IMG/VR virus record: IMGVR_UViG_3300024518_003578
Location: 1-43,170 of that record
From: a virus
Direction: 5' to 3' (one strand)
Length of the DNA: 43,170 nucleotides
How positions within the stretch are numbered: the stretch's first letter is position 1; each line of letters begins with the position of its first letter. This document shows, piece by piece, positions 319 to 13,763 of this stretch. A program made the translations under genes and the position numbers. The notes below the pieces were generated by a model. The model saw only the letters and a list, made by a program, of their open reading frames with translations. It did not search any database and was not told the DNA's origin.

Positions 319-334
319 AACGTGAGGTTTTCTG

Positions 335-868
335 ATGACAGCAGACCCAGAAAACACAAAAGCACTCACCACGGCGGAGCTTGAAACAGAGCGGCTCCCC
401 TTGTCTGAAGTTTCACCTCATCCACAAAATCCACGCACACACAGCGATAGGCAAATAAAGGAACTCCAGAACAGTCTCTTGGAGCATGGCTATGCCGCCG
501 GCTCTATGACTGTGCAAAAGTCAACCATGCGACTCGTAAAGGGACACGGGGTATACGAGGCACTCAAAGGCTTAGGATGTGTAGACGCTGACTTTGTTGT
601 AGTCGACATGAACGATGATGAAGCGCTCTTGTTCCTGGCAAGAGATAACCGACTCAGTGACCTATCTGCGTTCGACGTGCCAAAACTGAAAGCTATCACC
701 GTGGAGCTCCAAGCATTAAATATTCCACTGGAGCGCATGGGATTTACGACTGAAGAATATGAGCCAATGGTTGGTATATTCCGTCCTACTAATGGACTGG
801 AACAACCACGATTGGATGAGAAGAAGCCTACAATCTGTCCGGAGTGTGGTCATGAGTGGACAACGTGA
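335..868 (+). CDS. ParB/Srx-like domain protein with C-terminal zinc knuckle
   Basis: 177 aa. Residues about 20-140 form a ParB/sulfiredoxin-type N-terminal domain: L-P-L-S-E-V-x-P-H-P-x-N-P-R opening, a central VQKSTMRLVKGHGVYEALKG stretch matching the ParB box II G-H-x-x-x-x-A, and an acidic/DNR tail (LARDNRLSD). The last 12 residues add a CPECGH zinc-knuckle motif. In phages this domain is common alone or fused to DNA methyltransferases, where it may bind or nick DNA; the biochemical role here is inference. Its 3' end overlaps the start of the Mom-type gene by 17 bases, implying translational coupling. It is a paralog of the N-terminal half of the methyltransferase at 2377-3630. Confidence 0.8.
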   Translation: MTADPENTKALTTAELETERLPLSEVSPHPQNPRTHSDRQIKELQNSLLEHGYAAGSMTVQKSTMRLVKGHGVYEALKGLGCVDADFVVVDMNDDEALLFLARDNRLSDLSAFDVPKLKAITVELQALNIPLERMGFTTEEYEPMVGIFRPTNGLEQPRLDEKKPTICPECGHEWTT

Positions 869-938
869 TGTTGATCTAAAAGTGGATTGGTGTTCGTATA
901 AGGCGGCGAAGTATGCTGTTGAGAACTGGCACTATAGC
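830..938 (+). repeat. Left arm of mom duplication, copy A
   Basis: A 109-base segment closely matching 1694-1802. It spans the end of the ParB-like gene (the CPECGH zinc knuckle), the 17-base overlap and the first codons of mom copy A up to the WHYS motif. Differences are mostly at third codon positions, so the repeat is old enough to have drifted under protein-level selection. Confidence 0.9.
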
Positions 939-1343
939 GGAAGGATGCCGATGAGCAAGTTGTTAAAACTTGGCGTTTGGGAAGATGGTGTTTTTATTGG
1001 TGTGGTAATATTTGGTAATGGCGCAACCCCATTCTTGCTTGTGCGGTATAATTTGTCTATCCAAGGAGGTTGCGAATTGGTGCGTATCGCATTAAAAAAA
1101 CATCGAGCTCCAATGTCACAAATTGTTAAAATTTCTATAGCAATGTTAAAGCAGCAATCGCCTAAATTGAGGTTAATTATATCATTTGCCGACCCGGGGG
1201 AGTCTCATCATGGCGGCATATATCAATCAGGTAATTGGTGTTATACAGGACGAAGCGTAGGGGCGTATTTTTTTCAAGATAAAAAGGGAAATTATGGCAT
1301 CCACGAAACGTATCGGAGGATTTATCGAAATCATCGAAAATGA
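852..1343 (+). CDS. mom: Mom-family DNA modification protein, copy A (main part)
   Basis: 163 aa with the ATG placed at 852 to match copy B and to sit inside the ParB-like stop, as in a coupled pair. Features of the Mu Mom family (GNAT-like fold, modifies adenine in phage DNA to protect it from restriction) are visible: W-H-Y-S near residue 31, G-V-W-E-D then F-I-G-V-V-I-F-G-x-G-A core strands, C-E-L-V-R-I-A-L, and S-F-A-D-P followed by HHGGIYQ. The usual C-terminal K-H-R-Y-L-x-P-L-D segment is missing from this frame and lies in the next open frame (1340-1555), overlapping by ATGA. So copy A is split compared with copy B. It may act through frameshifting or reinitiation, or be inactive. Confidence 0.82.
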   Translation: MSGQRDVDLKVDWCSYKAAKYAVENWHYSGRMPMSKLLKLGVWEDGVFIGVVIFGNGATPFLLVRYNLSIQGGCELVRIALKKHRAPMSQIVKISIAMLKQQSPKLRLIISFADPGESHHGGIYQSGNWCYTGRSVGAYFFQDKKGNYGIHETYRRIYRNHRK

Positions 1344-1555
1344 TTAGCCCATTAGATTGTATTAAGGTTTGGAAAGAGGGGAAACACCGGTATCTATATC
1401 CTTTGGACAAAGCAATGAGACGACAGATTGAGAAACTAAGACAGCCATATCCTAAGCGGGCGGCCACAGGAGGCACGTCTACTCCAATAGACGCAGGCGG
1501 TTCGATCCCGACCCGTCCGCTCCAGATTGCAGGGCAGAATGTCAAGGTAGTTTGA
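1340..1555 (+). CDS. Detached C-terminal segment of mom copy A
   Basis: 71 aa starting at the ATGA overlap with copy A. Residues 15-47 carry KHRYLYPLDKAM and QPYPKRAATGGTS, nearly identical to the C-terminus of copy B, so this is the missing end of Mom displaced into the -1 frame. The junction reads CGA AAA TGA; the run of four A permits a P-site -1 slip that would rejoin both parts. Alternatively this is a simple frameshift mutation. After residue 47 the frame runs on for about 24 residues through a tRNA-like sequence instead of stopping where copy B stops. Confidence 0.6.
   Translation: MISPLDCIKVWKEGKHRYLYPLDKAMRRQIEKLRQPYPKRAATGGTSTPIDAGGSIPTRPLQIAGQNVKVV
1382..1479 (+). repeat. Right arm of mom duplication, copy A
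   Basis: 98 bases matching 2247-2344 with the same length. It encodes the KHRYLYPLDKAM to ATGGTS segment. The last 50 bases or so are almost identical, a level much higher than in the mom core between the arms. Confidence 0.9.
1456..1524 (+). tRNA. Degenerate tRNA-Gly(UCC)-like element
   Basis: Acceptor strands GCGGGCG (1456-1462) and CGTCCGC (1514-1520) pair over 7 bp with one G-U. They are followed by discriminator T and CCA (1521-1524), the bacterial tRNA-Gly pattern. A T-loop TTCGATC (1501-1507) is flanked by a T-stem with a bulged A. An anticodon stem CGTCT/AGACG encloses an 8-base loop with TCC. The D-arm is reduced to GCC/GGC with no normal 8-9 linker and the total is only 69 bases, so it is probably a pseudo-tRNA or tRNA mimic. 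Its 5' half is also the mom coding end. A covariance-model scan would settle it. Confidence 0.4.
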
Positions 1556-1579
1556 CACAATAGGCAAGCATGATATAAT
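1552..1579 (+). promoter_or_regulatory. Consensus sigma70 promoter with extended -10
   Basis: A perfect TTGACA (1552-1557) lies 16 bases from a perfect TATAAT (1574-1579), which is preceded by TGA (TGn extended -10). Transcription would begin near 1586, upstream of the leader peptide and mom copy B. Perfect consensus elements are rare by chance, so this is one of the best-supported promoters in the window. Confidence 0.8.
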
Positions 1580-1645
1580 AGAAGTGAAAGATTGAAGATG
1601 CAGCCGGTTTAGCGGCCAGTTGCAGAGCAAGGGACGGCGGGGGAT

Positions 1646-1732
1646 GTGAGAGAAATAAGGCGGCTTTTTGATGGCGGCATGACTCCCAGCGCGACAATTT
1701 GTCCGGAGTGTGGTCATGAGTGGACAGTGTGA
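1646..1732 (+). CDS. Zinc-knuckle leader peptide overlapping mom copy B
   Basis: A 28-residue frame from GTG preceded by a G-rich stretch (GGGACGGCGGGGG). It ends in TICPECGHEWTV, nearly the same tail as the ParB-like protein, and overlaps the mom copy B start by the same 17 bases. It is either a remnant of the duplicated upstream gene or a retained coupling peptide. Known context: Mu mom translation depends on Com, a small zinc-finger protein whose gene overlaps the mom start. The likeness of arrangement is visible; shared function is speculation. Confidence 0.45.
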   Translation: MREIRRLFDGGMTPSATICPECGHEWTV

Positions 1733-1802
1733 TGTTGATTTAAAAGTTGATTGGTGCTCATATAAGGCGGCGAAGTACGCTGTTGAGAACTGGCACTATA
1801 GC
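1694..1802 (+). repeat. Left arm of mom duplication, copy B
   Basis: Partner of 830-938, same length (109 bases). It carries the end of the leader peptide and the start of mom copy B. Confidence 0.9.
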
Positions 1803-2348
1803 AAGACTATTCCGGCAAATAAAAGCAATAGATTCGGGATTTGGGAAAATAGTATTTTTATAGGATCGATCATTTATGGATTGGGAGCATCCCCGTCTCT
1901 TGGGAAACCATATGGGTTAAATATTTTCGAGACCTGCGAATTAACAAGAATAGCATTGAATGGGCATAGTTCTTGTGTTAGCCTGTTGATCGCTATAACA
2001 TTAAGATTGGTTAAAAAGCGAAATCCTAAATTGAGATTATGCATATCGTTTGCTGATCCCTACCATGAACATTATGGAGGGATATATCAAGCTGCTAATT
2101 GGATATATAGTGGGGCAACTAAGGGAGCAAGTAAGATGATTATGCTTTTGGATGGTTCGCTTATTGATCCCCGGCGATATAATGGTCATGGTCATAATAG
2201 AGCGTCGCCTATGCCGGCTGGTGCAAAAGAATTAAGTATGCCATCGAAACATCGTTATCTATACCCATTAGACAAAGCGATGAGACGACAGATCGAGAAG
2301 CTAAGACAGCCATATCCTAAGCGGGCGGCCACAGGAGGCACGTCATAG
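1716..2348 (+). CDS. mom: Mom-family DNA modification protein, copy B
   Basis: 210 aa, complete. The ATG at 1716 is the equivalent of the copy A start. The Mom family pattern is intact: WHYS, F-G-I-W-E-N, F-I-G-S-I-I-Y-G-x-G-A, C-E-L-T-R-I-A-L, S-F-A-D-P then HYGGIYQ, and the C-terminal KHRYLYPLDKAM helix. Family knowledge: Mom converts a fraction of DNA adenines to a bulky N6-modified form (methylcarbamoyl/acetamido type) that blocks many restriction enzymes. It is transcribed from the consensus promoter at 1552-1579 and coupled to a zinc-knuckle leader peptide. First and last segments are almost identical to copy A while the central 120 residues differ widely. Confidence 0.88.
   Translation: MSGQCDVDLKVDWCSYKAAKYAVENWHYSKTIPANKSNRFGIWENSIFIGSIIYGLGASPSLGKPYGLNIFETCELTRIALNGHSSCVSLLIAITLRLVKKRNPKLRLCISFADPYHEHYGGIYQAANWIYSGATKGASKMIMLLDGSLIDPRRYNGHGHNRASPMPAGAKELSMPSKHRYLYPLDKAMRRQIEKLRQPYPKRAATGGTS
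2247..2344 (+). repeat. Right arm of mom duplication, copy B
   Basis: Partner of 1382-1479, same length. Here the frame closes immediately with TAG (2346-2348), whereas copy A carries seven extra bases after the repeat and stays open. Confidence 0.9.
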
Positions 2349-2376
2349 GCAAACGGACAATGTGGAAAAGTGTAAT

Positions 2377-3630
2377 ATGAGCCAGAAAGACGAAAAACCA
2401 GATTTAGTCTGGAGAGAATTTAACAAATTAAAACCGCATCCGATGAATTCTAACACTCATCCAAAAGAGCAAATAGATTCGATGGCATCTATGTTAGAAC
2501 GTCTTGGTGATGGTAAGATCCAAATTTCAGTTCAAAAAAGCACAGGTCTTGTTATGACAGGGCATGGGTTGATAAAATCCATGAAGCAAGAAGGGCATAC
2601 AGGGGCTTGGGTTATCGAAAAAGATTATGATGATTCAACAGCACTTACATGGATGGAAGCCGACAATCAATATCAAAAGTTAAGCGTAATCGACAAGCCC
2701 ACACAACTGGCTAATCTGGTAGAACTAAAAAGGATTGATGTTGAGCTCCAGCCGCTAGGTTTTGAACTAAAAGCAATAGAAACTCTGAAACGAGAAGTCG
2801 ATAACCGCGTGATTACAGAAGACGACCCGCCAGAAGTTTCAGAAGAAGAACCGATCACCGAGACTGGCGACCTGTGGCATTTGGGAGCGCACCGCGTTCT
2901 GTGTGGCGATAGCACGCAGGCCGAGGACGTTGAGCGGGTAATGGACGGCGAGAAGGCTGATATGGTGTTTACTGACCCGCCTTATGGAATGGATCTCGAT
3001 ACTGACTGGTCTGACTGTATAGGCAGTATAGGCAGAAAGAATATGACCAAAGGGAACAAATACGAACCGGTGATCGGAGATGATCAGCCATTTGAACCAT
3101 CGCATTTATTCGAGATCGAATGTGGCGAAATGTTTCTTTTTGGTGCTGATTACTATGCCGAACGAATACCACAAAGAGATAAAGGTTCTTGGCTAGTTTG
3201 GGACAAGCGCAAGGAGTCTCAGAGCGATGCTATTGGATGTGAGTTCGAGTTGATTTGGTCAAAGATCAAACACAAAAGACGGATGCTTAGGCATGACTGG
3301 TTTGGTTTTTTGAGCAGCGGAAATCAGAGTGATGCCAGAAATAGAGTACACCCCACTCAGAAGCCTGTGTCGCTATGTGCTGATATAATGACCCAATGGG
3401 GGAGTGTTGATAATATAGTCTACGATCCTTATCTCGGCTCTGGCACAACGCTCATAGCCGCTGACCAGCTTGACAGGGTGTGCTATGGATTGGAGATAGC
3501 CCCGAAGTATTGCGACGTGATAGTCAAGCGGTACATAGCGCACAGGGAATCATCCGAGGACGTCTGGGTTGAGCGCGGAACTGACCGCATAGCCTGGGAG
3601 CAGATAACCAGATCGGTCAAGGTGATATGA
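2377..3630 (+). CDS. ParB-domain / N6-adenine DNA methyltransferase fusion
   Basis: 417 aa from ATG 2377 (an in-frame GTG at 2362 is possible; the ATG is better placed after AAAAG). Residues about 10-140 are a ParB-like domain related to the gene at 335-868 (shared VQKST...GHG). The rest is a beta-class amino-methyltransferase: GDLWHLGAHRVLCGDS entry, motif IV TDPPYGMD, HPTQKP, then motif I-like DPYLGSGTTLIAADQL with GLEIAPKYCDVIVKRY. DPPY and the order IV then I point to N6-adenine methylation. It probably protects phage DNA or serves packaging or replication timing. Its stop overlaps the next start (ATGATG), placing it in the operon leading to terminase. Confidence 0.9.
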   Translation: MSQKDEKPDLVWREFNKLKPHPMNSNTHPKEQIDSMASMLERLGDGKIQISVQKSTGLVMTGHGLIKSMKQEGHTGAWVIEKDYDDSTALTWMEADNQYQKLSVIDKPTQLANLVELKRIDVELQPLGFELKAIETLKREVDNRVITEDDPPEVSEEEPITETGDLWHLGAHRVLCGDSTQAEDVERVMDGEKADMVFTDPPYGMDLDTDWSDCIGSIGRKNMTKGNKYEPVIGDDQPFEPSHLFEIECGEMFLFGADYYAERIPQRDKGSWLVWDKRKESQSDAIGCEFELIWSKIKHKRRMLRHDWFGFLSSGNQSDARNRVHPTQKPVSLCADIMTQWGSVDNIVYDPYLGSGTTLIAADQLDRVCYGLEIAPKYCDVIVKRYIAHRESSEDVWVERGTDRIAWEQITRSVKVI

Positions 3631-3917
3631 TGGCAATGAGTTGGCTGGCAGGACGGTTGAAACAAATAATGGGTAAAGATTCTCAAGCGCCTTTAGTTTT
3701 TCCCTATGGCGAAACTGCTGGCTTGATAGGCGAGGCTGTTGCTGAGTATATCCCGGAGCATATGATTGAGGGAAATACTGTCTTTGAGATCAGCATGCTC
3801 ATGACCAGGCGGCCACACCAGCTAAGTCAGCAGGAAAACGTAAAACTTACAATGCGTATAGATGACAACTTGAATGTGCAAATGATGGAGTATCCAGAAA
3901 GTGCGAAGGTGATGTGA
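3627..3917 (+). CDS. Hypothetical protein, 96 aa
   Basis: Starts at overlapping ATGATG on the methyltransferase stop and ends two bases before the terminase small subunit start, so it belongs to the packaging operon. The centre looks alpha/beta (GETAGLIGEAVAEYIPEHM) and ends in a strand-rich segment VKLTMRIDDNLNVQMMEYP. It has no Cys, membrane segment or recognisable motif. Position just before the small terminase suggests a packaging accessory role, but nothing in the sequence proves it. Confidence 0.6.
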   Translation: MMAMSWLAGRLKQIMGKDSQAPLVFPYGETAGLIGEAVAEYIPEHMIEGNTVFEISMLMTRRPHQLSQQENVKLTMRIDDNLNVQMMEYPESAKVM

Positions 3918-3918
3918 T

Positions 3919-4416
3919 GTGGTCGAAACCAAACGGCATGGAGACGCATTCGATTATTACTACTCCCTGGGTAACAGCCGAAGTTATATGCAAGTTGCAC
4001 AGGAGTTGCACGTTTCCAAGACATCGGTAGCTAAGTGGTCAAAGGCTTTTAACTGGAACGAAAGAGTCATCCAGCGCGACCTTGAGATAAACAAGAAAAC
4101 CGAAGAGAAAACCAACGATGCCATAGTTAATACGAAGGCAGATTATCGAGCAGATATTAGGTTGGCTCTACAGCCCATCAAGGCGTTGATAAATTCAGCA
4201 ATCATCGAAAAAGAGAATCCAAAGACAGGGAAAAAAGAAAGTGTAATAAAGTTTTCAGTCGAGGATCCCAAAGACATGGCGAGCATGATAACGTCACTTG
4301 AGAAACTAATTAAAGCAGATTTGCTCCTGATGGGCGAGGCAGATAGTCATGCGCAATTAAGTGGATCTGCCATTTCATTCAATTTCGGAAATAAACTTAC
4401 TGAGGATGACATCTAG
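3919..4416 (+). CDS. Probable terminase small subunit
   Basis: 165 aa, GTG start at 3919 in the TGATGTG junction. The N-terminus holds a helix-turn-helix (SYMQVAQELHVSKTSVAKWSKAFNW, residues about 20-45) of the type small terminases use to bind the packaging site. A long charged helical oligomerisation region follows, with an acidic C-terminus. It directly precedes the large subunit with a 1-base overlap (TAGTG). Length and position match the PBSX/SPP1-like small subunits. The DNA site recognised is not evident. Confidence 0.75.
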   Translation: MVETKRHGDAFDYYYSLGNSRSYMQVAQELHVSKTSVAKWSKAFNWNERVIQRDLEINKKTEEKTNDAIVNTKADYRADIRLALQPIKALINSAIIEKENPKTGKKESVIKFSVEDPKDMASMITSLEKLIKADLLLMGEADSHAQLSGSAISFNFGNKLTEDDI

Positions 4417-5705
4417 TGGAAATAGATATGGTGGAGACGACCAACTCCCAATTCTTCGACTTGACAAAATGCCACGACCGATATTTATTACCATACGGCG
4501 GTGGCGGCAGCGGCAAGAGTCACGAAGTAGCTCAGAAGATCCTCGTGAGAATCGAAAAAGCAGCGATGAACGGTTATCATGAGGGCTTTTTGTGTTTACG
4601 GAAGACGTCGCCAGATGTAAAACGGTCGGTTTTTGCTCTTTTCAAGACATATCTAGACCTCTGGGATCTACAAGGAATCACATCCAACAAAACAGACCTA
4701 TCCTATACCTGGCCTGGTGGCCAGTTCATATCCTGTGGCGGGCTTGATGACCCAGAGAAGGTGAAGTCGATTGAGAATATAACGGGGGTCTGGATGGAAG
4801 AGGCGACTCAGTTCACTTTAAGCGATTTCAGGCAACTCGATCTCCGGCTTCGGGGCGAGGCTCCTAGCTATTATCAAATTATAATGACATTCAATCCAAT
4901 GGATGATGCAAGCTGGATCAATGATGAGTTCTTTGATTCAGAAAAATCCCCCAAACTGGAATCATGGGATAACGGTAACAGCTTCCGAGTCATGAAAACC
5001 ATCACTATAGAAGAGTTGAAGAAAGAGATTGAAATGTATGCCACTGCCATTCACTCCACCTGGCGCAACAACAAATGGGTGGACGATCAATACGTCGCCA
5101 TGCTTACCGCTCTAAAGGAAAGCGACCCCGCACGATACAGTATATACGATCAAGGGTTATGGACTGCGTTGGCACAGCGTATATATGTCAACTACGAAGA
5201 GATAAGCGAAGCTGATTGGCCTGAACATTTTGACGAAGTGTTTTATGGAATGGATTTTGGCTATGCCAAACCAACTGCACTGATCATGATAGGCCTGAAA
5301 GATGGCGAAGTATATGAGAAGGAACTCATATATGAAAGCGAGTTAAAAAATGTTTCCAGAATAGCCAGGATGGAAGAACTGGATATAGACAAGAATGATG
5401 AAATATTTGCCGATCCGTCAGAGCCGGAGTTCATAGATGAAATATATGACGCTGGATTCAATATCAAACCAGCAAACAATTCAGTTATAGCTGGTATCGA
5501 TTGTGTGAATACTAAGCGCTCAAAGATATTGACTACAAGCATTAATCATCTTTGGGAAAAGAAGAAGTATCGCAGAAAAGAAGACAAGAATGGCAATATC
5601 CTTGAAGATCCTGTGAAAGAAAATGACCATCTTCAGGATGCTGAGAGATACGCATTATTTTCTCGCTTCCATGATGATGACAAGCCAGCCATTTGGGTTT
5701 TGTGA
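4416..5705 (+). CDS. terL: Terminase large subunit
   Basis: 429 aa, GTG start overlapping the previous TAG (an ATG at 4428 is an alternative). The ATPase domain shows Walker A YGGGGSGKS at about residues 27-35 and a Walker B region GVWMEEATQF. The C-terminal nuclease domain starts at YGMDFGYAKPTALIMIG, with a second acidic site at ADPSEPEFIDEI and a third near NDHLQDAERYALF, the RNase H-like metal site layout of the Terminase_3/PBSX XtmB group. It cuts concatemeric DNA and drives it into the prohead through the portal encoded downstream. Length is typical and all key motifs are present. Confidence 0.95.
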   Translation: MEIDMVETTNSQFFDLTKCHDRYLLPYGGGGSGKSHEVAQKILVRIEKAAMNGYHEGFLCLRKTSPDVKRSVFALFKTYLDLWDLQGITSNKTDLSYTWPGGQFISCGGLDDPEKVKSIENITGVWMEEATQFTLSDFRQLDLRLRGEAPSYYQIIMTFNPMDDASWINDEFFDSEKSPKLESWDNGNSFRVMKTITIEELKKEIEMYATAIHSTWRNNKWVDDQYVAMLTALKESDPARYSIYDQGLWTALAQRIYVNYEEISEADWPEHFDEVFYGMDFGYAKPTALIMIGLKDGEVYEKELIYESELKNVSRIARMEELDIDKNDEIFADPSEPEFIDEIYDAGFNIKPANNSVIAGIDCVNTKRSKILTTSINHLWEKKKYRRKEDKNGNILEDPVKENDHLQDAERYALFSRFHDDDKPAIWVL

Positions 5706-5716
5706 GGGATACAGCT

Positions 5717-5992
5717 ATGCCAAAGTTTCGTAAACGCAAGCATGTAGAAGGTTCTGTATTCTCAGAGAACATGACAGGCTTTAAGCGTGGCGATATTCTC
5801 GTTGTATCAGGGGTTGCAGGTGTTGACGAAAAATATAGAATTAAAAAAGTCAAAGACGATGCCTTGACATTCGGTAATATACACTGGTATCATAAAGGGT
5901 GGCGTTTAATGCGGATGTTAATGAGCGCCTTTTATTGGGGATGCAAGGTATTGTTTGTGAAATGTCGCATACATAGACTTCGTAAAGGATAG
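5717..5992 (+). CDS. Small basic hypothetical protein
   Basis: 91 aa with ATG 5717 chosen because AGGGAT lies 8 bases upstream; an in-frame TTG at 5693 lacks a ribosome site. The protein is rich in Lys/Arg. An MTGFKRGDILVVSGVAGVDEKYRIKKV-like segment suggests a small beta barrel (SH3/KOW-like). It ends with an amphipathic stretch containing WHKGW-like aromatic residues and two Cys. It lies between terminase and portal, one base before the portal start. No family recognised. Confidence 0.6.
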   Translation: MPKFRKRKHVEGSVFSENMTGFKRGDILVVSGVAGVDEKYRIKKVKDDALTFGNIHWYHKGWRLMRMLMSAFYWGCKVLFVKCRIHRLRKG

Positions 5993-5993
5993 C

Positions 5994-7448
5994 ATGGACA
6001 AAGGCATATTTACAGTAGGTGTTGATAATTTGCGCCAGCGGTATTGGGATCCGCTCTTCGGCGGCATGTTCGGTGGCCAGAAGGCTATCCGCTTTGATGG
6101 CTCGCATGATGGCATACTGGGCTTTGTCAATATGATGACAGGGATCAGCGGCACGGTGATTGATCCGGACAACCCAATATTTCAGATAAAGGCTAATAAG
6201 CGCAACATACATGCCTCGGTCAAACTAATTAGCAACGCTCTGGCGACTACGCCGTTGCGGGTTTACAAGACGAAGGAACCTAACGTCAAATCTAATTTCA
6301 AGTATACCAAAGTACGGGAAGTGTCTGAGCATCGCAAGAAAGAAATGATCTCGAAGGCGACGCCAGGAACTCCGCTGGCACAAGCTAACGATTTGGAAGA
6401 AATAGTCGGGGGTCATCCCCTGGTTGACCTGCTTAGAAACGTCAATAGCGCATGGGACAATTTCGGGTTGAAGTTCGTTACGGGAGCGTACATGTCGCTC
6501 ACTGGCGATGCTTACTGGTTGTTGTTGCGGAACAAGATCGGCGTTCCATCGGCTATCTGGATAGCACCAGCAGAATATATGCGGATCCGGCCTGATGAGA
6601 ATGTATTAGTCAAAGAGTATGTCTATAGGCGGGGTATGAAAGAAATTGTATTCCCGCCGGAAGATGTGATCCACTTCAGGCTATACGCTCCTGGGGCAAG
6701 CTATCAATTTCATGGCAGAGGCGATGTCGCGGGGGCTGCTGATGCTTTCAATTTGACAGAGAACATACAACAGTTTGAGCAAAAGATATTCCAGAACGAT
6801 GCTAATCTTGGTGGCATTCTTAGCACAACTAGCAAGACTGCTCCGGAACAGCGCAAGAAGTTGAGCAAAGAATTCACGACTGGTTATGTAGGTGTGAAAA
6901 ACGCCGGTAAGTGGATGGTAATGGAGAACGTCGAACCAAAGCCATTGGGCATGACTCCCAGGGAACTGGACTATCACGACGCCAGGGAAACGTTGATGCG
7001 CGAGATGTTACGCAATTTCAGCGTTCCTGAGTCGATGATGACAAGCCAATCAAGCACGAGAGCAGGATTGGAAACGTCACTGACGCAGTTTGCATTGATG
7101 TCTACTCTGCCATTTTGTGTACTTATGACAGAGGCGTTGAATGCTCAATTATCCCCACAATTTAACGACAATATCATCATCGCGTTTGACAATCCTGTGA
7201 TGGATGACAAACAATTCCAGTTGAAGCGGGACAGCGTTTATCTGAAGTATGGAGCGACGACCCCTGATGAGATTCGCGTACGAGATGGCAGAGAGCCGCT
7301 TGGTGGGCTATCATCGGAGCCGTGGGTTGACAGCAGTAGAGTCCCACTTAGCATGGTTGGCCAGCAGGACGTAGATGCCCAGGCAGACCAGGTGAACCTG
7401 ATAATGGAACGGGCTAGAGAGAAGCGTAGAGAGAAGCGGGAGGCGTGA
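5994..7448 (+). CDS. Portal protein (HK97 family)
   Basis: 484 aa. The core has the HK97-type portal signature: N-I-H-A-S-V-K-L-I-S-N-A-L-A-T-T-P-L-R-V-Y, then LTGDAYWLLLRNKIG with WIAPAEYMRIRPDE, EDVIHFR, the NDANLGGILST stretch, and the E-T-L-M-R-E-M-L-R-N-F-S-V-P-E-S-M-M helix with S-S-T-R-A-G. The C-terminus TPDEIRVRDGREPLGG is the usual stem/crown end. It forms the dodecameric DNA gate at one capsid vertex and binds terminase and, later, the connector. A 23-base stretch encoding KRDSVYL recurs in frame at 8183-8205. Confidence 0.93.
   Translation: MDKGIFTVGVDNLRQRYWDPLFGGMFGGQKAIRFDGSHDGILGFVNMMTGISGTVIDPDNPIFQIKANKRNIHASVKLISNALATTPLRVYKTKEPNVKSNFKYTKVREVSEHRKKEMISKATPGTPLAQANDLEEIVGGHPLVDLLRNVNSAWDNFGLKFVTGAYMSLTGDAYWLLLRNKIGVPSAIWIAPAEYMRIRPDENVLVKEYVYRRGMKEIVFPPEDVIHFRLYAPGASYQFHGRGDVAGAADAFNLTENIQQFEQKIFQNDANLGGILSTTSKTAPEQRKKLSKEFTTGYVGVKNAGKWMVMENVEPKPLGMTPRELDYHDARETLMREMLRNFSVPESMMTSQSSTRAGLETSLTQFALMSTLPFCVLMTEALNAQLSPQFNDNIIIAFDNPVMDDKQFQLKRDSVYLKYGATTPDEIRVRDGREPLGGLSSEPWVDSSRVPLSMVGQQDVDAQADQVNLIMERAREKRREKREA
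7223..7245 (+). repeat. 23-base direct repeat shared with 8183-8205
   Basis: Within the portal gene, encoding KRDSVYL. The same 23 bases recur 960 bases downstream, where the frame leading into the small gene at 8211 also reads KRDSVYL. This looks like a duplicated or recombined portal fragment. Confidence 0.75.
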
Positions 7449-8227: not shown

Positions 8228-8330
8228 ATGCGGCGAGAGTTCGGAGATAATCTTGCAGAAGTTGGAAGGCGTGGGCAATGCAGCAGGCGGCTATACGGAA
8301 GCAGTCAATGAGTCATCCGAGACATTATAA
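8211..8330 (+). CDS. 39-residue peptide, possible relic of a portal C-terminus
   Basis: ATG 8211 to TAA 8328-8330, overlapping the MuF gene start by one base (TAATG). The frame is open upstream to about 8175 and there reads KRDSVYL, identical to portal. The acidic sequence (EIILQKLEGVGNAAGGYTEA) could be the tail of a second portal-like gene left after recombination. It has no clear ribosome site of its own. It may instead serve only for coupling to the next gene. Confidence 0.35.
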   Translation: MFAPDECGESSEIILQKLEGVGNAAGGYTEAVNESSETL

Positions 8331-9208
8331 TGACAACTAATATCAACAACCTCATAGTCACAACGGCAGTCAAGCTCATGGCTCTGGAAGAAGCCGACCT
8401 TGAAGCGAAATGGCACGTCTTTGTGAAGCGCACAGAGAAGACCGAGGATAAGTTCAAGCCTAAGTTGCAGACGGTGTTTACGAAGCAGGAGAAGGCTGTG
8501 CTGGCCAAGCTGAAAGGCAAGCGTATACCAGACACCAGCGATGCGGAGAAGTCAATCGTCTATATGTTGTTTAAGGACAACGAGGCTATCTTCAAAGCCA
8601 GCGAAGAAGCCGAGAAATTTGTTGACCAGATATATACAGCTTCGGCGTGGCAGGAGCCGTTCACAGTTGTTATGCTACCATTCGTTACCGAAGCATTCAA
8701 GGAAGCTGGCGATGCCGCATTTGTAGAGATAGGCTTAGAAGGTGCGTTCAACGTCACCAACCCAACGGCGCGGAAGTTCCTGAAAGACAGAGTGTTTGAT
8801 AGCGTCAAAGGGATAAACGAAGAGACGCGAGAGAAGCTCAAGCGTGCTCTGATAAAGGGCTTTGACGCTGGCGAAGGTATACCGGAGATAAGCAAGCGCA
8901 TCGCTGGCGTGTTCGATATTAACCGTGGCTCACGGACAGATAAGATAGCCCGGACGGAGATCATAGGGGCTTCCAACAACGGAACGCATCAGGCGTATGT
9001 TGCCAGTGAAATAGTTGAGACGAAAATATGGATAGACAGCCGGGATGCTAATGTAAGAGTTCAGCATAGGATAGACGGGCAGGAACGGAAATTAAACAAG
9101 CGGTATAGTAATGGGCTATTGCATCCCCATGATCCAAGTGGATTGCCAGGAAACGTGATAAATTGCCGTTGTACGGAAACTGCTGGAAAGCTCAAGGAGG
9201 CGGCGTGA
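8330..9208 (+). CDS. MuF-type phage head morphogenesis protein
   Basis: 292 aa. The C-terminal half carries the Phage_Mu_F/SPP1 gp7 signature: IARTEIIGASNNGTHQAY, W-I-D-S-R-D-A-N-V-R-x-x-H, I-D-G-Q, P-H-D-P-S-G-x-P-G-N-V-I-N-C-R-C. The N-terminus is helical and charged. Family members bind portal, are packaged in small copy number, and are thought to help head assembly or DNA entry. It follows the portal block, as usual for the family. The full motif set and C-R-C ending are present, so it is probably functional. Confidence 0.9.
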   Translation: MTTNINNLIVTTAVKLMALEEADLEAKWHVFVKRTEKTEDKFKPKLQTVFTKQEKAVLAKLKGKRIPDTSDAEKSIVYMLFKDNEAIFKASEEAEKFVDQIYTASAWQEPFTVVMLPFVTEAFKEAGDAAFVEIGLEGAFNVTNPTARKFLKDRVFDSVKGINEETREKLKRALIKGFDAGEGIPEISKRIAGVFDINRGSRTDKIARTEIIGASNNGTHQAYVASEIVETKIWIDSRDANVRVQHRIDGQERKLNKRYSNGLLHPHDPSGLPGNVINCRCTETAGKLKEAA

Positions 9209-9740: not shown

Positions 9741-9782
9741 CGTAGGGGTGACACAAGACAATTAACCCAACTGAATATACAT

Positions 9783-9845
9783 GAAACGCCCGACTACAGG
9801 AGAGGTTTGCTCTTGGTCGGGCGTTTCTCTTTCCTGTAGCCGGGC
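9783..9845 (+). terminator. Three-armed alternative hairpin 2
   Basis: Same design as the preceding element with different sequence. Arm a (9783-9794) pairs with arm b (9816-9827) over 12 bp, with an inner AGAG/CTCT helix and a pyrimidine-rich tail. Arm a (9788-9801) can instead pair with arm c (9832-9845) over 14 positions with one mismatch. Arm c lies 5 bases before the ribosome site of the protease-AAA gene, so the switch could affect its transcription or translation. Confidence 0.55.
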
Positions 9846-9861
9846 AATTAGAGGTGATATG

Positions 9862-12258
9862 ATGGACTTGACACTTGACGCATTTATGGCGCAACTTGGC
9901 GAAGCATCCAGCGCAGACAAGGAAGCCTCAGCATCCAGCGTGATGAAAGTTGCGGAGGCTGTGGCGCAACGAGCCAAGCAAGTTTTTGGCTTGAGCGTGG
10001 ATAATGCTCAATTTGTATTGAAGGACTTTGTATGCGATATACATAAGAAGGGTGAACCTGACGCCGAAGATACAGGGCGTTTTGTACAGAGCTATATCAG
10101 CACAATAGCGAAGGACAGGGATAGCGAGGCTATACTTCCTGAAGGCGTAATGATGGATGACTACAGGGAGTTGCCGATAGTCTTGAGAAGTCATCTCTAT
10201 AACGAGATTGGGATAGGTTCAAATCAATGGATCATCTTCAATGCTAACGAGAAAGCAGCAGTTGAGCAGATACATTCGCTTCTGGCCAGCACGCAGTTTG
10301 CATCGAAAAAGGCAAATCCGCTGGCAGACCAATTATACCACTGGTCAATCGAGGATATGCCTATAGGCGACTCGATAGGCTTTATTCCTGTTGCTTTTGT
10401 GGAGCCGCAGGACAAAGGCTGGGATAAGGTATATGATTCGTGGGTAAAGCGGACGACCGCATTTCTCAAGCTAAAAGGCAGAGAAGCCACTGAGGACATG
10501 ATCGAAGGTGTAAAGCGTATATTCACGAAGGTTATCTTGCTTGAATACTCAAAAGTTATGGTCCCGTCAAATCCATTTGCTGTGTCCCTGGCTGTTGAAA
10601 AGGGATTGTTGCTTGCAAGCGAGGCGGCAACATATACACTTCCAGAAGAGTCGGGCACTGATGGCATTACAAGCGATACTTTCGCCATAGCGGGGCTGGA
10701 TGTGGTGCAGTTTGATGATGCTGGCGAGGCATTGGTGGGTACAGTCATAAAAGAAGGACGCACATTATCAAAGAAGACGCTAAGTGCCGTAACGACGGCT
10801 CATACGGCACTGGGGGATCTGTTAGATGCCAATGCAATAGAAACCGATGATACCGATACGGGTAAGACCATGACCAAAGCAAACGGCATGTGGAATAGAA
10901 CCCTGCCAAAGTCTTTCAACATCGCAGAATATGACGAGGCTAACACAGTATTCCGATATGAATTATTCACCAAATTCCTTGAGTGCCAAGTCAAAGAGAT
11001 ATACGTCAATACTTACGATATTCCATCCCCGCTGATTGGGACTTACCTGGAAGCTATCAGCGTAGTGACTGCTGATATGACCGTTGACGACACGCGTAGA
11101 TTTTCATATGAAGGCAAGGAATCACCACCAACAAGGTCATATATCCAGTTGAATTCAGAAAAGCGGAAGCAATTTCTGGTCAACGGAAGCGAATATTGTC
11201 ATGATAACGAAATGGCTCTGGTCAAAGACTTCACTCCTGGATGGTATGGATTAGAATTTGCCATCATAACCAGCACGGAAAATGAAGCCAAGAGTGACGA
11301 GATCATGAATGCTGTACACGCCGAAGCCGATAACAATCATATGCTCAAGGGTGAGAAGTTCGCCTTGTCTGGAGAGTTCCTGGGTGATACAGACGACTCG
11401 TGGGACGACCTGGTGCTTGCCAAAAAGGACAGGCAGGCGATACAGAAGTCCATGAAGGTCACCCAGAAATCAGATGGCAATAGCCGTGGACTCATGTTCG
11501 TGGGGCCGCCCGGGACTGGTAAGACAAAAGCTGGTCGTACCATAATGAATGATACCGAGAGCACTTTTATCTGGGTATCAGCGAGAGACTTTATGTACGG
11601 GTTGCCTGATCGTATTCTTGCGCTTGCTTTCGATATGGCCAGGAAGCTGGCTCCCACAGTGCTGTTCATGGAAGATGTGGACACGTCATTGGATAAAGAC
11701 CTACTCAAGACCGAATTGGACGGGCTGAAACAAAACAAGGGTTTGATGACCATATTGACCACGAACCATCCTGATAGACTGCCGAAGGCTCTCATAGACC
11801 GGCCGGGCAGGTTCCATCATATTCTATTGTTCGATCTCCCGGACGCTGGCCAACGTAAAGAGATGTTTAAGCTATGGGCTGGCGATATAGACGCCAAGAT
11901 ACTGGATGTGTTGGTAGACAGCACAGACAGCTTCTCCGGAGCGCATATCTATCACCTGGTGGAATACTCGCACGGCATAGCCGAAGACGAGGGGATCAGC
12001 ATAGGGAAAGCCTTGTTGGAGAGTCTGATCCAGATGAGCGACCAGATGGAACTCGTGGCCGGGTTAAGTAGTACGCAAACGAAGGAGCTATTTAACGAAG
12101 CGGACTTGAGAGAAGCCGCTGAAGATGAGATAGAGATCACGCCAGAGTTAGCGCGGAGACTACTGGAGTTAGACGATAAGGAGAAACAAACTGCCGAAGA
12201 TGACCAAACATTGACGGCGGCTGAGGAATTGCTGGTCGAGACAGGCCATTTTCTATAG
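9862..12258 (+). CDS. Prohead-type serine protease fused to AAA+ ATPase
   Basis: 798 aa from ATG 9862, chosen because GAGGTG ends 5 bases upstream (ATG 9859 is adjacent). Residues about 80-245 resemble phage prohead proteases: PIVLRSH with candidate catalytic His111, then IGDSIGFIPVAF, and RIFTKVILLEYSKVMVPSNP with candidate Ser230. After a linker and a domain of unknown type (about 320-520) comes an AAA+ module: Walker A GPPGTGKT (548-555), Walker B VLFMEDVD (600-607), sensor TTN (about 633-635), RPGRF Arg finger (647-651), and a helical lid. It sits exactly where the separate maturation protease normally lies, just before the capsid gene. It would mature the capsid shell; a role for ATP-driven unfolding is inference. 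I know of no such fusion, but have not searched. Confidence 0.85.
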   Translation: MDLTLDAFMAQLGEASSADKEASASSVMKVAEAVAQRAKQVFGLSVDNAQFVLKDFVCDIHKKGEPDAEDTGRFVQSYISTIAKDRDSEAILPEGVMMDDYRELPIVLRSHLYNEIGIGSNQWIIFNANEKAAVEQIHSLLASTQFASKKANPLADQLYHWSIEDMPIGDSIGFIPVAFVEPQDKGWDKVYDSWVKRTTAFLKLKGREATEDMIEGVKRIFTKVILLEYSKVMVPSNPFAVSLAVEKGLLLASEAATYTLPEESGTDGITSDTFAIAGLDVVQFDDAGEALVGTVIKEGRTLSKKTLSAVTTAHTALGDLLDANAIETDDTDTGKTMTKANGMWNRTLPKSFNIAEYDEANTVFRYELFTKFLECQVKEIYVNTYDIPSPLIGTYLEAISVVTADMTVDDTRRFSYEGKESPPTRSYIQLNSEKRKQFLVNGSEYCHDNEMALVKDFTPGWYGLEFAIITSTENEAKSDEIMNAVHAEADNNHMLKGEKFALSGEFLGDTDDSWDDLVLAKKDRQAIQKSMKVTQKSDGNSRGLMFVGPPGTGKTKAGRTIMNDTESTFIWVSARDFMYGLPDRILALAFDMARKLAPTVLFMEDVDTSLDKDLLKTELDGLKQNKGLMTILTTNHPDRLPKALIDRPGRFHHILLFDLPDAGQRKEMFKLWAGDIDAKILDVLVDSTDSFSGAHIYHLVEYSHGIAEDEGISIGKALLESLIQMSDQMELVAGLSSTQTKELFNEADLREAAEDEIEITPELARRLLELDDKEKQTAEDDQTLTAAEELLVETGHFL

Positions 12259-12296
12259 ACCAGCTATAAGCCCGTAGAGATGCCAGGTAACGACGC

Positions 12297-12362
12297 TGGA
12301 GATATTAGCCCTTAGCGGGGTGGAGATATTAGGCGAAGGGACTGGAGGCATTAGCGAGCGGT
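12297..12362 (+). repeat. Three imperfect ~22-base direct repeats
   Basis: TGGAGATATTAGC-like units begin near 12297, 12321 and 12343 in the 149-base gap before the capsid gene. Each unit ends in a G-rich segment. There is no convincing hairpin and no frame longer than about 15 codons. They could be protein or RNA binding sites in the capsid-gene leader. The ribosome site GAGGT at about 12396 is separate. Confidence 0.55.
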
Positions 12363-12407
12363 GGGAACGAGACGATAATCAACGCAAACTAATACGAGGT
12401 ACTTATA

Positions 12408-13763
12408 ATGCTTACCAATGAAGAACGAGCGTTACTGAAGAAGATAAAAGATAAAAACGACCGGAAGCTTGCCGAGATAGCGGCAGTGGCTGAGAAGGGC
12501 ATAGCTACAATAGACGACGCTGTTGAAGTTGTCGAGTCGGAAGTATCCGAAGGCGACTATCAAGGCGAGACGCTGGAAACGCTGAAAGCAAAAAAACTAG
12601 AGATGGAAGGGACTCTTTCGACTCTGTTGACGCATCTGAAACAACCCGAGAAGGCCCCACTGTTGGAGGGGGAACCGCAGCCAAAGGGTCAGCTAGAGCA
12701 TGATTTTAAGTCGATGGATGATTTCATGATTAAGTTGGCCACCGAAGGTCCGAACCGAGAGGCGACCTCGCCAGAGTTGAAGCGTTGGCGCGAAACGCTC
12801 AAGGCGAACCAAGCAGCAGGCGACCCGGCAACAGGTGGGACGCTTATTCCAGCCGAATACATCGAGCGGATAATGGAACGTGCCAGAGCCGACAACCCAA
12901 TTATGGCTAACGCCACCGTAATCCCGATGGCAACAGGCAAAGCTGTGATACCGTTTATTGACGGATTCGATGAGAGTCAAGGCAAAACAGCGGGAAATGG
13001 GCAGTTCTACTGGGAAGGTGAGTCGGAAGCGTTTACCGAAACTAACGCCCTTTTTGGCACGACTGAGCTGAATCTCAGGAAGCTGGCTGCACAGGTGCGC
13101 GTGACGTGGGAGTTGCTGAAATATTCTGCTGTCAGTATAGAGCCTATTCTGTCCAGAATGTTTGATCAGAGCTTATCTACGGCACTTTCCCGTGGCTTCA
13201 TTCGCGGAACTGGTGTGAAGCAGCCGAAGGGCATCTTGCAGAATGGCGGGCATAAGCTCGAAATACCAAAAGCTGACAGTCAGGTCGCTGATACATATAT
13301 CTACGACAACATCCTGGATCAAGTAGCAAGGCATTATAGCGCCGACGGGGATATTGGCGATGGAACCTTTATGGCTAACAAAACGGCCTTACCGGCACTC
13401 GGCAAACTCTCTGTCGTGGTTGGCACTGGCGGATCAGGTATCTTCTTGGTGAATCAGCAGATACAGGGCAAACCTGTATTTTCGTTGCTGGGAATACCAC
13501 TTAAATTCAATGGTCAGATGCCTATCGTGGGCGATGCTGGCGACGTTACTCTTGCCGATTGGGGTGGTGGGTATCTCGTAGGCGAGCCTTCTGGTGGTGC
13601 AGGTTTGGAAACTGAGCAGAGTATCCATCTGTATTTCAACTTTGGAGATACAGCCTTCAGAGCTATAACAGCAATGGATGGACAACCCTGGTGGCCGTCT
13701 GAGTTCAAGCCGGCATATGGCGATTCTCAGGCTCCTTTTGTGACTATCGCAGCCAGAGCATAA
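12408..13763 (+). CDS. Major capsid protein (HK97 fold)
   Basis: 451 aa. Residues 1-105 form a charged, coiled-coil delta domain that would act as internal scaffold and be removed by the protease encoded upstream. After it comes the classic Phage_capsid start: G-D-P-A-T-G-G-T-L-I-P-A-E-Y-I-E-R-I, the E-loop region with WEGESEAFTETNALFGTTEL, L-R-K-L-A-A-Q-V-R-V-T-W-E-L-L, the R-G-T-G-V-K-Q-P-K-G-I-L motif, G-I-P-L-K-F-N-G in the A-domain, and a beta-rich end. Such subunits build the icosahedral shell. The exact cleavage site is not determinable by eye. No separate scaffold gene is seen. Confidence 0.94.
   Translation: MLTNEERALLKKIKDKNDRKLAEIAAVAEKGIATIDDAVEVVESEVSEGDYQGETLETLKAKKLEMEGTLSTLLTHLKQPEKAPLLEGEPQPKGQLEHDFKSMDDFMIKLATEGPNREATSPELKRWRETLKANQAAGDPATGGTLIPAEYIERIMERARADNPIMANATVIPMATGKAVIPFIDGFDESQGKTAGNGQFYWEGESEAFTETNALFGTTELNLRKLAAQVRVTWELLKYSAVSIEPILSRMFDQSLSTALSRGFIRGTGVKQPKGILQNGGHKLEIPKADSQVADTYIYDNILDQVARHYSADGDIGDGTFMANKTALPALGKLSVVVGTGGSGIFLVNQQIQGKPVFSLLGIPLKFNGQMPIVGDAGDVTLADWGGGYLVGEPSGGAGLETEQSIHLYFNFGDTAFRAITAMDGQPWWPSEFKPAYGDSQAPFVTIAARA

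Follow-up and report, generated by a model that had tools for sequence, protein, structure and literature searches.

The standard S78 proteases cut the head scaffold without ATP, and in tailed phages generally scaffold cleavage is understood to be an ATP-independent step, ATP being known for DNA packaging and host chaperonins. FtsH and Lon join an AAA+ ATPase and a protease in one chain, with the protease C-terminal to the AAA+ part. S78 prohead proteases (HK97 gp4-like; PF04586, TIGR01543, phrog_80) are encoded between the portal and capsid genes, alongside a capsid protein whose N-terminal extension can be cleaved off, and they are known as separate proteins or as fusions with the capsid protein (PMC6563490). 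HK97 Prohead 1 contains 415 copies of the capsid protein and about 60 copies of the protease (PMC12749128). The prohead protease/major capsid protein fusions (curated model NF045541, and phrog_617) likewise join an S78 protease to another head-module protein. In the locus described here the partner is instead a middle domain with an AAA+ ATPase, and the capsid gene is separate downstream.

The window that we analyzed, a stretch of 43,170 nucleotides making up positions 1 to 43,170 of the uncultivated virus contig IMGVR_UViG_3300024518_003578 from IMG/VR, contains an uninterrupted reading frame at 9862..12258 (on the + strand, as are all features located below) that encodes a single 798-residue, 90-kDa chain. 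From N to C terminus the chain consists of an S78-type serine prohead protease, a variable linker, a middle domain, and an AAA+ ATPase, and homologs have the same architecture. The initial annotation had described protease-type motifs with candidate residues His111 and Ser230 and a complete AAA+ module in this chain, in front of the capsid gene. The positions were correct, the residues proved invariant among homologs, and an HK97-type major capsid protein gene lies at 12408..13763 (phrog_10, E 1.2e-39). We consider it likely, with a probability of roughly 60%, that the product joins a maturation protease by a tether to an AAA+ ATPase that forms rings and is of chaperone or remodeling type, the whole acting on the capsid protein.

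An alternative upstream in-frame ATG at 9781 would lengthen the frame, and we dropped it. The added stretch, 9781-9862, is occupied by a strong RNA hairpin just 5′ of the fusion gene (9788-9845; -33.6 kcal/mol, z -5.3), a ribosome-site-like GAGGTG motif lies 5′ of 9862, and close homologs begin near 9862, with L007, L011, and L051 carrying a similar LDAxMAQLGEA sequence near their own Met; 9862 is therefore the better start. The hairpin itself may be a terminator or a regulatory element.

The protease domain spans residues 74-245 (10081..10596). Its initial assignment as a prohead-type serine protease rested on motifs, since the window’s own half has no Pfam match and no significant PHROG match. 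Profile searches on the two halves, which had been proposed as a check, thus identified the ATPase (Pfam AAA, E 1.1e-19) and the proteases of relatives but left the window’s protease half unmatched. Among 33 homologous halves, 21 matched Peptidase_S78 (PF04586) at E<0.01, the best at 1e-17, with bit scores of 28.4 for L003 and 24.4 for L004 against a cut-off of 21. The L003 half also matched the phrog_80 head maturation protease (1.5e-19), and the L020 half matched the TIGR01543 HK97 prohead protease at 7.8e-15, which is under the 59-bit cut-off of that model. The AlphaFold model of the window’s half was confident for most of residues 71-240, and Foldseek searches with it returned viral prohead proteases, with 134 matches at E<=0.001 and a best E of 2.3e-13, a significant result for residues 80-245, the region on which the protease call had been staked beforehand. 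A PDB fold search with the same half found nothing, probably because the PDB set had no S78 structure. The candidate catalytic residues His111 (10192..10194) and Ser230 (10549..10551, within LLEYS) are unchanged in all 33 aligned halves and in 60/60 sequences of a wider homolog set, in which Ser171 and Glu228, the latter two residues ahead of Ser230, also never vary and Asp85 is found in 59 of the 60, with one gap. Judged by predicted fold for the window and by sequence for its homologs, the N-terminal half is an S78-type serine prohead protease, sharing both the fold and the His and Ser motifs of that family. The same fold and motifs rule out an ordinary AAA+ adaptor domain, the other identity that had been raised for this part of the chain.

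The linker that follows (residues 246-342, 10597..10887) shows little conservation among relatives and differs in content between them; with pLDDT values of ~50 or lower across the modeled part, 247-293, it is probably mostly disordered. A zinc-ribbon-like module, CECxxCG...HCxxIxCxxCGGEMRRAERPGPGK, occurs in the linker (L010, L013, L017, L019, and L020) or at the C-terminus (L028, L035, L044, and L050) of many fusions, and a second linker module, ITKPETTENYHRIPV...ALYCG...YLFDxxKWTMEEAxxWV, recurs in other fusions.

The neighborhood of the gene is a head module. Terminase large subunit (4416..5705; phrog_3717, E 2.8e-52), portal (5994..7448; phrog_12, E 2.3e-51), and head-morphogenesis (8330..9208; phrog_2468, E 1.6e-35) genes lie upstream, and the fusion occupies the usual place of an S78 protease, between portal and capsid genes. 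The capsid protein is the presumed substrate: alignments to its best-listed phage relatives begin no earlier than residue 136-144, so we presume its first ~135 residues to be a scaffold (delta) domain, comparable to the cleavable extension found with S78 proteases. The gap between the fusion and the capsid gene (12259-12407) holds repeated ggagatattag-like units. Elsewhere in the window, two Mom-like DNA modification genes (759-1343 and 1710-2348; phrog_1384) adjoin ParB-like and methyltransferase genes.

Homologs had been proposed as a means of seeing whether the fusion recurs, and it does: IMG/VR scans retrieved 66 distinct sequences that contain the middle domain, and in 59 of them it shares one ORF with the protease, so the fusion is not a product of chance. 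It is real, recurrent, and maintained, and its carriers, uncultivated tailed phages, form a large and scattered group. Four of the remaining seven sequences encode the halves as separate adjacent genes, one has a frame break, and two (L034 and L040) are truncated at contig ends. The frame break, in L032, falls inside the protease and is probably a sequencing error, and we did not count it as a natural split. The order of the separate genes is protease then AAA in L022, where the AAA gene begins 2 bases past the protease stop codon, exactly at the protease/middle boundary, and AAA then protease in L114, L125, and L122 (the L122 AAA ORF is truncated by the contig end). In L125 the middle/AAA unit is the end of a 1823-residue ORF (334-5802) with a separate protease gene downstream, and the ~1235 residues ahead of the unit have no match to the head-gene profiles used. 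Of the 59 fused loci, 42 have a capsid-protein gene within 3 kb downstream; in 14 of the remaining 17, the sequence extends less than about 1.5 kb further on that side. Portal or head-morphogenesis genes lie upstream in most fused loci. Nine loci (L030, L031, L034, L036, L040, L044, L048, L053, and L056) have two tandem HK97-type capsid-protein genes after the fusion, perhaps encoding a pair of capsid proteins or a minor one.

The two halves of the fusion have different histories. Compared with L003, the window is 31% identical in the protease, 87% in the middle domain, and 90% in the AAA part, and with L002 the corresponding values are 42%, 75%, and 88%; with L051 they are reversed, at 58%, 41%, and 53%. 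The AAA tree places the window (L001) with L002, L003, L004, and L007 with full support. The protease tree conflicts with it, grouping L001 and L007 with L042 and L051. AU tests rejected the AAA grouping on the protease data (p 2e-70 with L004, 9.9e-5 without it) and the protease grouping on the AAA data (p 4e-64), p-values that overstate the conflict because the groups were named after the trees had been seen and some protease branches are long. The identity contrast between the halves stands by itself, and these sequence comparisons indicate that protease modules have been swapped between lineages, the fusion having been kept or re-formed.

These observations bear on whether the ATPase takes part in maturation at all. 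The AAA+ half could have a task of its own, for example in early host takeover or in a DNA-related process, and be merely co-expressed with a protease that releases itself, as the variable, probably disordered linker and the occurrence of the halves as separate genes would allow. We regard this as unlikely, as every locus of sufficient length pairs the middle/AAA unit with a prohead protease, the unit lies in the head module in all loci where the module is recognizable, and protease halves that were exchanged are still fused to the AAA part or next to it. It is through this linkage alone that we infer a connection between the ATPase half and the capsid.

What the tethered ATPase might do is suggested by its fold and motifs. 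The middle domain (residues 343-535, 10888..11466) is conserved in the 66 distinct loci sequences and confidently modeled, and alone it has no match in Pfam (including the Bcs1 N-terminal family), PHROG, or PDB sequences. The AAA+ core and lid (residues 542-740, 11485..12081), the only domain found by a Pfam scan of the chain, also has PDB matches. The module is complete. Among 36 middle/AAA sequences, K554 and T555 of Walker A (GPPGTGKT, residues 548-555, 11503..11526) and E604, D605, and D607 of Walker B (FMEDVD, residues 602-607, 11665..11682) are invariant in 36/36, the arginine-finger motif DRPGRF (residues 646-651, 11797..11814) in 35/35 where sequence is present, and sensor-1 Asn635 wherever sequence is present. 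With active-site and ATPase motif residues both invariant, the two halves look catalytically intact. The Glu-Asp order in Walker B departs from the usual Asp-Glu and is the one found in Bcs1. By predicted fold, the middle domain and AAA part together are nearest to Bacillus subtilis YjoB (Foldseek E 8.7e-18) and Bcs1, with matches spanning ~410-425 columns; the superposition is loose (TM 0.45-0.5, rmsd about 9), identity is 16-18%, and the fusion differs from both in having a protease in front. Because of this looseness, and because the AAA core by sequence is nearest to Cdc48/VCP, the chaperone label is uncertain.

The same chain could also be read as an FtsH- or Lon-like machine in which the AAA+ ring threads and unfolds the scaffold domains of the capsid protein and passes them on to be degraded processively by the fused protease, as the initial annotation suggested in its idea of pulling out and degrading the delta domains. 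Protease and AAA+ do share a chain as in FtsH and Lon, the AAA core is similar in sequence to Cdc48/VCP and FtsH, and a pore-loop 1 Tyr is present in the window and its nearest relatives. Across the family, however, Tyr occupies this position in only 13 of 36 sequences and the aromatic typical of unfoldases is not conserved. The domain order is reversed, the protease is of an unrelated type, and Pfam detects neither an FtsH zinc nor a Lon Ser-Lys protease domain in the chain. S78 proteases, moreover, normally cleave scaffold without ATP. Bcs1, one of the nearest folds, moves folded protein and does not thread an unfolded chain (PMC12219900). Together the loose fold match to YjoB and Bcs1, the folded cargo of Bcs1, the pore loop, and the N-terminal protease favor a chaperone or remodeling role, so that FtsH-like degradation is doubtful, more so than a separate task for the ATPase. 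Remodeling of the capsid or portal is the better of the two options first proposed. An assembly or annotation artefact that merged two genes, a natural concern with an uncultivated virus contig, is refuted as a chimera and has practically no probability, since 59 distinct sequences, drawn from many IMG/VR sample accessions, share the architecture and show conserved synteny.

Searches for earlier examples covered several sources. None of 50,697 phage records shows the fusion, has a match to the N-terminal 479 residues, or aligns over 80% of the chain; the proteins that the AAA part matches in isolated phages look like generic AAA ATPases, and both contexts inspected lie away from head genes. 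Plasmids, among the matches listed, match the AAA part only, and none of the matching places spans 80% of the query. A scan of bacterial and archaeal genomes, of limited sensitivity as both query patterns lay in the middle domain, turned up nothing apart from an FtsH in a Bacteroidales MAG. Searches of the openly licensed literature found no description of a protease/AAA+ fusion. Unremarked examples may already be deposited, possibly among some BFVD entries labeled ‘prohead protease’ and 650-700 residues long that the Foldseek search matched.

Under the tethered-chaperone reading that we prefer, the N-terminal protease, through His111 and Ser230, would cut the N-terminal scaffold domain of the capsid protein encoded by the adjacent gene, and the middle domain and AAA+ part would form a ring that spends ATP on handling the capsid protein, the scaffold, or the portal, either ahead of cleavage or while it proceeds. 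Tethering would hold both activities at the same assembling head, and the ATPase may be freed by the protease cutting the linker. More tentatively, and at clearly less than even odds, the ATP-hydrolyzing ring might travel with the protease into or onto the procapsid and remodel or extract scaffold domains or the portal, making maturation ATP-driven and chaperone-assisted rather than passive.

With the protease joined to what may be a chaperone-like ring motor driven by ATP, head maturation in these phages may itself consume ATP. The fusion is widespread, has been kept through protease exchange, and lies beside the capsid gene, so that ATP-assisted head maturation becomes directly testable, and the middle-domain/AAA+ family, so far unlabeled, offers a usable marker for these uncultivated phages.
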